Origin: Synechococcus sp. MIT S9220
GTDB taxonomy: Bacteria; Cyanobacteriota; Cyanobacteriia; PCC-6307; Cyanobiaceae
Assembly (NCBI RefSeq): GCF_014304815.1
Contig: NZ_CP047958.1
Location: 682,001-746,000, forward strand
DNA: 64,000 nucleotides
Reading direction: 5' to 3'
Part shown: in pieces, positions 18,687 through 61,732 of the stretch
Position numbering within the stretch: position 1 is the first letter of the stretch
How the letters are laid out: each line of letters begins with the position of its first letter
Translations under genes and position numbers: made by a program
The notes under the pieces: model-generated
The model's database searches: none
Seen by the model: only the letters and a program-made list of their open reading frames with translations
Told to the model about the DNA's origin: nothing

Positions 18687-19595
18687 GTGCCCCGTGTCGG
18701 ACTGATCGTCAATGACGGCAAGCAGCTGGCGGTTGATACCGCGAGCACGATTCAGTCGCGTCTGGAGCGGGGCGGTCACGAGGTCATCCGCGCCAGCAGC
18801 TCAGGCGGGATGGTGGGTTTCGCCAATCCTGATCAGCACCTGCGCATGCTCGGGTACAACGCCTGCGTGCCGGAGGGGTTTGATCAATCGATGGTGCTGG
18901 CCATCGTGCTGGGTGGCGATGGCACGGTGTTGTCCGCAGCGCGTCAAACCGCTCCTGTGGGAGTGCCGATTCTCACCATCAATACAGGCCATCTCGGCTT
19001 CCTGGCCGAGGCCTATCTCGATGATCTGGATCATGCCCTGGAGCAGGTGCTCACCCAGCAGTGGACGATCGAAGAGCGGGCCAATCTGGTGGTGAGTGTG
19101 ATGCGCGGCGATCAGCGTCGCTGGGAAGCGTTGTCACTCAATGAGATGGCGTTGCACCGAGAACCGCTCACAAGCATGTGTCACTTCGAGATCGCCATCG
19201 GACGCCATGCTCCGGTGGATATCTCCGCCGATGGGGTGATTCTGTCGACCCCAACGGGTTCCACGGCCTATGCCCTGAGTGCCGGTGGTCCGGTGATCAC
19301 ACCGGATTGTCCGGTGCTGCAGCTCACGCCGATCGCTCCCCATTCCCTGGCGTCCAGAGCGCTGGTGTTCAGTGATGCTGAGCCAGTCACTGTCTTTCCG
19401 GCCACACCGGAACGCCTGATGATGGTGGTGGATGGCTGTGCAGGTTGTTATGTGTGGCCGGAGGATCGCGTGTTGATTCGCCGCAGTGATCATCCCGTTC
19501 GCTTTGTGCGTCTCAGGGACCATGAGTTTTTCCAGGTTCTGCGCAACAAGCTGGGCTGGGGGCTGCCCCATGTGGCTAAACCCGACCGGCCATGA
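18687..19595 (+). CDS. nadK: NAD kinase
   Basis: A 302-residue protein from GTG 18687. [11 protein letters not shown] (phosphate-binding), [18 protein letters not shown] and [15 protein letters not shown] are the NAD kinase signatures. It phosphorylates NAD+ to NADP+, the electron acceptor of photosynthetic electron transport. The stop overlaps the next gene's ATG by four bases, so the kinase and the regulator are translationally linked. Confidence 0.95.
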
Positions 19596-20311
19596 CCGCT
19601 ACGTATGGCTCCATGGCAGGCAGCGTTGATGATGCTGTTGTGTTGCTGGTTGGCGGCGAGGCAGCAGCACTGGCGGAACGCCTGAGGGCTTCGGGATACG
19701 CCCCGATCGACTGGACCGGTGGTGAGGAAAGCGGTCTGGCTGCTGGCTCCAATCGAGCTCCGGTTGCAGCGATCCTGGCCAGCGACCAGGGATCAACGGT
19801 TCTCGAGCTGCGCTCTTGTTTTGGTTCTCTGCCGATTCTGATCGGAGTGAGCGAAGACAGCATTGCCGCCCGAGAGTTGGTGTTGGCTTCTGGTGCAGAT
19901 GATTTCTGGTTCACCCGCAGTGCACCAAGCGATTTGCTGCAGCGGTTGCGCTTGCATCTCTCGATTCAATCCCGTAGTTCATTAAGACCTCCGCTTCTGC
20001 AGCTCGCTGATCTCAGCGTGGATCTCAGTTGCAGGCAGGTGCGTCGAGGTGCGCGCTCACTGCTCCTCACGGCCAGAGAATATGCGCTGTTGGTGCTGCT
20101 GCTCGAGGAGCGGGGCAGGGTTGTCAGCAGAGAACGCATCCTTCGAGATGTCTGGAAGGATGAACAGGGTTCCTCCAGCAACGTGATCGAGGTGTATGTG
20201 CGTTATCTGCGCCAGAAACTCGAGGAAGATGGCGAGCCTCGTTTGATTCATACGATCCGCGGTCGTGGCTATTGCCTCAACGACGGGGTGCCGAGCCTGC
20301 GGTCGAGTTGA
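19592..20311 (+). CDS. OmpR-like winged-helix regulator with degenerate receiver
   Basis: A 239-residue protein. The C-terminal half is a normal OmpR/PhoB winged helix ([20 protein letters not shown], then [17 protein letters not shown] and [11 protein letters not shown]). The N-terminal half keeps the receiver outline ([12 protein letters not shown]) but has lost the phosphorylation pocket. The acidic pair becomes GG at 21-22, the phospho-acceptor Asp aligns with A63, and the conserved Lys aligns with T108. It therefore probably works without phosphorylation. It overlaps nadK by ATGA and touches the DUF192 gene. Confidence 0.88.
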
Positions 20312-20751
20312 TGGACCAGCCACCACTGCCTCCCCAGACCTTGCCGATCGAAGCGCGTTGGTGCCTTGACCAGCATCCTCAGCCTTGTATCGCTCTTGAG
20401 GTTGCTGACCAGCCTGATGAGCAGCAGCGGGGCTTGATGCAACGCCCAGCCCTGCCGCCGCTGCGAGGTATGTGGTTTCCGGCCCGACCCTCTCGGCCGA
20501 TGCGTTTCTGGATGCTGCACACGCTCGCGCCTTTGGACATGCTGTTTATCCGTGACGGCAGGGTGCTCGATATCGCAGCCAATGTGCCGGTGTGCGCGGC
20601 ATTGCCCTGTCCCTCTTACTGGGCTGACGCAGATGGCAATGGCCGCGCTGACTTTGTTGATGGCGTGATTGAGCTTGGTGCGGGGGAAGCTCTGCGCTTA
20701 GAGATTCAACCCGGTGATCCAGCCACAATTGAATCAAACGTTGCAAAATAA
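20311..20751 (+). CDS. DUF192 protein
   Basis: A 146-residue protein with VADQPDEQQRGLMQRPALPP, MWFPARPSRPMRFWMLHTLAPLD, FIRDGRV and VIELGAGEALRL. These segments define DUF192, a small beta-rich family. No obvious signal peptide is present, although many relatives are exported. Function is unknown. It begins inside the stop codon of the preceding regulator (TGATG), so the three genes nadK, regulator and DUF192 are a coupled unit. Confidence 0.85.
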   Translation: MDQPPLPPQTLPIEARWCLDQHPQPCIALEVADQPDEQQRGLMQRPALPPLRGMWFPARPSRPMRFWMLHTLAPLDMLFIRDGRVLDIAANVPVCAALPCPSYWADADGNGRADFVDGVIELGAGEALRLEIQPGDPATIESNVAK

Positions 20752-61478: not shown

Positions 61479-61732
61479 GCATCGATCCTCTTCAGCAAGG
61501 CCTGGAGCAGTCGTTTGAAACAGAACGATGGGGGCGGCTCATTCGTGATTGCGACGACATCGAAACTCTCAGGCAAACAGCTCTTTCTTTGCTGCAGCAA
61601 GTCACGCAAATGAAGGTCGCCAGTACCTGGATGGCATCGAGAGCTTCGGAGTCTGAAAACGCCAAGTTGGAAATCTTGGCGAAACTGATCAAGGAACGAT
61701 CCGAGCGCCCTCAGGAGCAGACAGAACAGTGA
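61475..61732 (+). CDS. Hypothetical helical protein, 85 aa
   Basis: Started at TTG 61475 (SIDPLQQGLEQSFETERWGR). The product is a helical, charged protein (IRDCDDIETLRQTALSLLQQ, MKVASTWMASRASESENAKL). I think I have seen it as a conserved cyanobacterial hypothetical, but cannot name a family. The overlap with the previous stop fixes the start; a TTG at 61460 is possible but less likely. Confidence 0.6.
   Translation: MSIDPLQQGLEQSFETERWGRLIRDCDDIETLRQTALSLLQQVTQMKVASTWMASRASESENAKLEILAKLIKERSERPQEQTEQ

Follow-up and report, generated by a model that had tools for sequence, protein, structure and literature searches.

An OmpR-type regulator encoded between nadK and a DUF192 gene in Synechococcus lacks the receiver phosphorylation site and appears to descend from NblR

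How does a response regulator work if its receiver has lost the residues at which it would be phosphorylated? This question is raised by a gene of Synechococcus sp. MIT S9220 (2.42 Mb genome, single contig), which is located in the window, i.e. the whole stretch of 64,000 nucleotides that was analysed. The gene encodes a protein of 239 amino acids (ATG at 19592, TGA at 20309-20311), whose closest named relatives are found in Synechococcus and Cyanobium. Its start overlaps the stop of nadK by four bases (ATGA, 19592-19595) and its stop overlaps the start of a DUF192 gene by one base (TGATG, 20309-20313), as expected from an earlier note on this DNA, which described the regulator as translationally linked to both neighbours. 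By a little better than an even chance, we regard the gene as the version of nblR that is present in this family, i.e. an OmpR-type regulator whose receiver has been turned into a non-catalytic dimerisation and docking domain. The features of the locus are as follows:

18687..19595, + strand: nadK (NAD kinase), upstream partner of the overlapping gene set (NF002732, 568.4 bits, cut-off 348; PF20143 and PF01513)
19592..20311, + strand: NblR-lineage regulator, 239 amino acids (PF00486, 92.1 bits; NF045914, 138.6 bits, below its cut-off of 300)
19631..19972, + strand: remodelled pseudo-receiver, residues 14-127 (no PF00072 match; alignment; model)
19652..19657, + strand: Gly21-Gly22 replacing the acidic pair (Gly at the first position in 76/77 family rows)
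19775..19780, + strand: residues 62-63, site of the five-residue shortening of the Asp-bearing beta3-alpha3 loop (17 versus 22 residues; Asp or Glu at 63 in 0/67 rows)
19847..19849, + strand: Val86 replacing the switch Thr (Val, Ile or Leu in 75/77 family rows)
19913..19915, + strand: Thr108 replacing the Lys (Ser or Thr in 68/77 family rows)
19856..19957, + strand: retained alpha4-beta5-alpha5 face, residues 89-122, with R94, D104, D114, R118 and R120 (conservation)
19997..20281, + strand: OmpR-type winged-helix DNA-binding domain, residues 136-230 (PF00486; median dN/dS 0.29)
20311..20751, + strand: DUF192 gene, downstream partner (PF02643, 91.6 bits)

The arrangement is common to the family: nadK shares the strand of the regulator in 75 of 77 loci, the remaining two being located at contig starts, and DUF192 is found in all 77. 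The ATGA motif is present at the end of nadK in 59 of 75 family loci, and 54 of 75 have the in-frame ATG of the regulator there. In L010, L012, L040 and L044 (probably two genomes, each represented twice as L010/L040 and L012/L044), DUF192 lies 985 bases past the regulator and is not adjacent to it, so something has been inserted between the two genes.

The phosphorylation pocket

A Pfam scan of the window protein (E up to 1) gave Trans_reg_C as the sole match (92.1 bits versus a cut-off of 26.2); the OmpR-type helix-turn-helix (PF00486) is therefore intact, as described earlier. A search for receivers in the same genome (E 0.001) returned 12 places, and the regulator gene was not among them. 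Of the 77 family rows, 50 were scanned (E 0.01): none matched PF00072 and all matched PF00486, and one also gave a weak match to GlnR_1st (E 0.0017). In a control, PF00072 was found above its cut-off in five of five NblR-lineage proteins of other cyanobacteria, including all four scanned that score over the NblR cut-off.

The pocket was analysed in an alignment of the family rows with seven response regulators of the same genome, 48 NblR proteins over the NCBI cut-off and 19 other cyanobacterial regulators below it. The 77 family rows include the window protein, and some genomes are represented twice (L009 is identical to L034). Eight of the 12 receiver places were taken as loci for the genome's own regulators; L005 had no BLASTP match at the threshold and was dropped, leaving seven. 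In the order acidic pair, Asp, Thr and Lys, the quintets of these seven regulators read DDDTK, DDDSK, EDDSK or EDDTK. In the window protein, G21 and G22 stand for the acidic pair, the Asp is deleted, and V86 and T108 take the places of the Thr and the Lys; none of the five phosphorylation residues is thus kept. Gly-Gly in place of the acidic pair and T108 in place of the Lys had been claimed in the earlier note and were recovered in the alignment; the loss of the Thr is an addition, since the note had left it out. The note had further placed A63 at the position of the phospho-acceptor Asp. The Asp is indeed gone, but A63 results from a gapless count from P57, and a deletion of five residues between beta3 and alpha3 describes the change better. 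The stretch from P57 to L73 comprises 17 residues in 67/77 family rows compared to 22 residues in 44/48 NblR proteins and 7/7 own regulators. The beta2-alpha2-beta3 segment has 21 residues in all 48 NblR proteins and between 12 and 54 in 76 family rows, with one row gapped.

The same losses are found in the relatives, where the earlier note had suggested looking for them. The phosphorylatable Asp is kept in none of the 77 family rows of the alignment, but in 46/48 NblR proteins and in all seven own regulators. The first acidic position is Gly in 76/77 family rows, and the second is variable (Glu in 11 and Asp in four of the 77). The slot of the Thr is occupied by Val, Ile or Leu in 75/77 rows, and that of the Lys by Ser or Thr in 68/77. 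A better alignment could in principle have placed an Asp in the acidic pocket; however, Asp or Glu is found at position 63 in none of the 67 rows whose loop has 17 residues. An acidic residue does occur somewhere within residues 62-66 in 49 of these rows, but its place is not fixed (residue 65 is Asp in 30 and Glu in 12). A canonical receiver hidden by misalignment was ruled out, the Asp slot having no conserved acidic residue. On the sequence, nothing is left of the usual phosphorylation site or of its five residues. With its Asp absent, the window protein is an aspartate-less pseudo-receiver, and the idea that it is beyond control by phosphorylation of the usual Asp is supported by the missing pocket residues in the window and the absence of the Asp throughout the family rows.

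The retained face and the emptied pocket

Conservation is concentrated elsewhere in the domain: 16 of the 34 positions from residue 89 to 122 are conserved in at least 90% of the rows compared to 13 of 75 positions from residue 14 to 88 (Fisher P 0.002). R94, D104, R118 and R120 are invariant in 77/77 rows, and D114 is Asp in 76/77. By our own alignment mapping, D104, D114 and R118 would correspond to Asp97 (we take this to be its number), Glu107 and Arg111 of KdpE. The Asp-Arg pair is presumably equivalent to the two charged residues in the centre of the PhoB interface. These two residues show absolute conservation, and the dimerisation of PhoB depends crucially on them, according to the available part of PMC2586830; the Arg111-Glu107 pair of KdpE is described in that of PMC4773095. 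The position of the dimer-face residue Arg118 is occupied by Leu in 39/48 NblR proteins (rows L053-L082 and L146-L163), whereas the family keeps Arg, as do other OmpR-type regulators; the aromatic switch residue is Phe in 75/77 family rows and Tyr in NblR. The median dN/dS, calculated over 1950 pairs that are not independent of each other, was 0.29 for the DNA-binding domain and 0.43 for the receiver, of which residues 14-88 by themselves gave 0.55. On the sequence data, purifying selection has thus preserved both the winged helix and the alpha4-beta5-alpha5 face.

An AlphaFold2 model built from 12 sequences (mean pLDDT 81.4, pTM 0.71) contains five strands and the helices alpha1, alpha3, alpha4 and alpha5, but no alpha2, and residues 46-48 and 50-52 are of low confidence. 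Ordinary OmpR-type regulators were retrieved in a fold search of the PDB, the best of which was PrrA (1ys6_A, Z 16.8, rmsd 4.9, 212 aligned residues); no other fold stood out in this search. One of the matches was RitR of Streptococcus pneumoniae (5vfa_B, Z 15.4, rmsd 5.2, 205 aligned residues), which is likewise an OmpR-type pseudo-receiver; however, RitR is switched by a disulfide of a linker cysteine (PMC12632262, available part), and the family regulator has no conserved cysteine. ChxR, HP1043 and other pseudo-receiver regulators of the OmpR type have been described as dimerising without phosphorylation (available parts of PMC12632262 and PMC3960148), although their gene context is unrelated.

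The retained alpha4-beta5-alpha5 face would also suit a regulator that depends on a partner, i.e. one that acts as a heterodimer with a regulator that can be phosphorylated, e.g., RpaB. Among regulators with a pseudo-receiver, WhiI, which pairs with BldM, is known to work in this way (PMC12632262, available part). For the family regulator, we consider this unlikely.

Redox or NADP-related control had been suggested in the earlier note from the neighbourhood of nadK. A sensor of this kind would bind NADP(H) in the emptied pocket or read the redox state by other means, and co-production with NAD kinase would couple the NADP pool to transcription. The gene overlap with nadK and the conserved Gly at the first acidic position are in line with such a sensor, and ligand binding as well as cysteine redox switches are known from other pseudo-receivers (PMC12632262, available part). 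However, the neighbourhood of nadK is shared with NblR proteins that keep the Asp, and adjacency therefore says little about the signal. Cys69 and Cys96 are named in the title of a study of NblR by Espinosa et al. 2012 (as listed among the references of PMC4390884), and the NblR protein L053 (228 residues) has its two cysteine columns at 69 and 96. The Cys69 column contains Cys in 0/77 family rows, the Cys96 column, which marks NblR, is occupied by Val97 in the window protein, and no Cys is found among the positions conserved in at least 90% of the rows. A cysteine redox switch was therefore rejected, and the fold search also gave nothing beyond ordinary OmpR-type regulators. Control by NADP or redox state, for which gene adjacency had been the basis, is not supported, and the sensor is improbable.

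Alternatively, the pocket may have been rebuilt as a new site for a small molecule, e.g., NADP(H), a bilin or a different metabolite linked to the antenna, which would be compatible with the conserved Gly, the excised phospho-loop and the missing alpha2 of the model. Known cyanobacterial pseudo-receivers to which the protein can be likened by description are those of CikA and KaiA; these, however, are clock proteins that bind quinones and not winged-helix regulators (PMC12632262, available part). We give the rebuilt pocket little probability. If it were true, a regulator translated in step with NAD kinase would tie the expression of antenna genes directly to a metabolite without any kinase.

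Relationship to NblR

Among the NCBIfam models, the best match of the window protein is NblR (NF045914, 138.6 bits; next model 104.7). NblR is also the best model for all four further family members scored singly, and it matches 50/50 family members. The equivalog cut-off of 300 bits was, however, not reached by the window protein or by these four (117 to 154 bits). Pseudo-receivers are said to be computationally identified as receivers (PMC12632262, available part), which Pfam fails to do here (0/50). The Pfam receiver model does not recognise any of the 50 members scanned, and the singly scored members stay below the NblR cut-off; surveys of pseudo-receivers based on PF00072 may therefore overlook this clade.

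Gene order points in the same direction as the profile. In the 48 NblR loci, of which about 1.5 kb were seen on each side, nadK is present in 29, DUF192 in 32, either of them in 42 and neither in six; neither gene is found beside 17 of the 19 regulators below the NblR cut-off. The NblR genes are mostly separated from nadK by tens to hundreds of bases. Two trees were calculated, the first from 70 rows (20 of the 77 family rows, 24 of the 48 NblR rows, 19 under the cut-off and seven own regulators) and the second from 71 rows (17 family, 26 NblR-side including L172 and L180, 17 under the cut-off, four own and seven from other phyla; three long own rows were omitted). The family forms one clade with a support of 100/100 in both trees, and the branch that separates family and NblR from the rest is supported by 91/75 in the first tree and 100/100 in the second. 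The stem branch of the family amounts to about two changes per column in both trees, which could distort its placement. The column of Cys96 contains Cys in 46/48 NblR proteins and 60/77 family rows and Gly in 16/19 regulators under the cut-off and 5/7 own regulators. Raw identity does not favour NblR: the medians towards NblR and towards the group under the cut-off are 0.47 and 0.49 for the DNA-binding domain and 0.26 and 0.27 for the receiver. Reading the DNA-binding specificity from the recognition helix was abandoned, as it does not tell the two groups apart (median identity 0.71 to either).

Hence, the regulator appears to descend from NblR, the known regulator of the breakdown of the light antenna; as it misses the NblR cut-off and raw identity does not favour NblR, we refer to it as NblR-lineage rather than NblR. 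Another OmpR-type regulator could instead have replaced nblR between nadK and DUF192, and this would explain the long stem in both trees, the presence of Arg118 as in other regulators and a raw identity that is no nearer to NblR than to those. An Anaerolineales regulator (L015) is 42% identical to the window protein, which is similar to the local identity of the NblR rows (32 to 42%). Replacement is nevertheless rather improbable, considering that the gene order is the same as that of nblR, that NblR is the best profile match, that the Cys96 column contains Cys in most family rows, although not in the window protein, and that the tree support against regulators of other phyla and other regulators is 100/100.

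Part of the pocket is already missing from NblR itself. An acidic residue at the second position of the pair is found in none of the 48 NblR proteins and Ser in the Thr slot in one; the Asp is kept in 46 and the Lys in 43. The family regulator and NblR of S. elongatus and other cyanobacteria have in common the nadK/DUF192 order in many genomes, the OmpR-type winged helix, a pseudo-receiver, the best profile match and, in most family members, the Cys of the Cys96 column. They differ in that NblR mostly has the Asp, the Lys and full loops and, where scanned, a PF00072 match, none of which is found in the window protein, and in that the latter keeps Arg118, which is mostly Leu in NblR, and scores under the NblR cut-off. 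The family regulator is thus a more extreme form of the known NblR condition. A second lineage on the NblR side with a lost pocket is represented by L172 (G518) and L180 (G384), whose quintets read ASETS and VGATP. Both are placed with NblR in the trees, adjoin DUF192 and score below the NblR cut-off, and L172 is still matched by PF00072.

Distribution, antenna genes and a possible mode of action

The regulator is matched at E 1e-20 in 178 of 300 family genomes. A strong homologue (2.2e-38 or better) is present in 164 of these; the 14 weak matches (2.3e-27 or worse), which are probably other regulators or fragments, were set aside. Strong homologues were found in 163 of 185 genomes with at least three matches to phycobilisome linkers compared to one of 115 with fewer (G244, two linkers), a comparison from which relatedness was not removed. 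The Fisher test yields 8e-59, but this value should not be read as a true probability: judging by size and linkers, most of the linker-poor genomes probably belong to a single clade, Prochlorococcus, and the co-occurrence therefore rests on few independent events. Twenty-two genomes have linkers but no strong homologue; ten of them belong to one genus (g9), and in two (G295 and G227) the contig breaks off at nadK or shortly behind it. The gene is therefore dispensable for antenna life. In G034 (L089 / L184), a regulator remnant of 35 residues (74% identity) is located just after nadK and is followed by DUF192; this looks like a gene loss inside the same genus. The presence of the gene together with phycobilisome linker genes points to control of the antenna or of light stress.

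That the gene is decaying and heading for loss is hardly credible: it has been lost from some linker genomes, with the remnant in G034 beside nadK, and dN/dS is higher in the receiver than in the DNA-binding domain, but strong homologues in 164/300 family genomes, a dN/dS well below 1 in both domains and the invariant residues of the receiver speak against decay, and a pseudogene was rejected on the distribution and dN/dS.

Classical nblA, the known target of NblR, is rare in the family, which speaks against the proposed NblR-like role: the Pfam NblA model was matched in 5/300 genomes at E 0.001, with two matches above the cut-off, one of which (L083, G279) is on a contig of phage-like appearance, as judged by eye. 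The genome of the window gave weak matches alone (E 0.038 and 1.2). The better of these belongs to a small multi-copy family, which was matched in 23 of 31 chosen genomes and at five places in the window's genome; a short stretch of the window (61493-61624, + strand) shows a weak similarity (E 9.2e-4) to an NblA-like small protein with five matching places in this genome. The NblA-like family was considered as a linked target and rejected, as it is matched in G034, G008, G025, G049 and G010, which have no strong regulator homologue, and unmatched in G181 and G045, which have the regulator.

NblR of S. elongatus acts without phosphorylation (PMC12632262, available part), and a non-phosphorylated switch, as proposed in the earlier note, is therefore largely known biology. 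NblR is required for the derepression of nblA, and its role has been called enigmatic (PMC4390884, available part). The options listed for pseudo-receivers in general are a constitutive activity that depends on availability, binding of a partner, covalent modification, the multimeric state and binding of a ligand (PMC12632262, available part). Availability and partner binding would best fit the anatomy deduced for the family regulator, since it has no pocket chemistry, a kept dimer face, no conserved Cys and a start that overlaps nadK. If the gene is the family's version of nblR, the protein would bind DNA as a dimer without phosphorylation, and its targets would be genes of the phycobilisome antenna and of light or nutrient stress, as for NblR in S. 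elongatus. The output may be set by the amount made, through coupling of translation to nadK, and by partner proteins instead of a kinase; this is the weakest step of the proposal.

The complete remodelling of the receiver in this family, the retained dimer face and the co-occurrence with phycobilisome linkers are apparently new. No title or abstract start describing the clade or the linkage of nadK and nblR was found in a literature search, a weak negative given that few subscription papers were covered. In a 2025 review, the way in which pseudo-receivers are switched on and off was described as a mystery (PMC12632262, available part). With its pocket deleted and its dimer face and DNA-binding domain kept, the regulator separates the parts of a response regulator that serve chemistry from those that serve output. 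If it controls antenna genes, the role of an NblR-like regulator would become a direct question in genomes in which the Pfam nblA model finds almost nothing.
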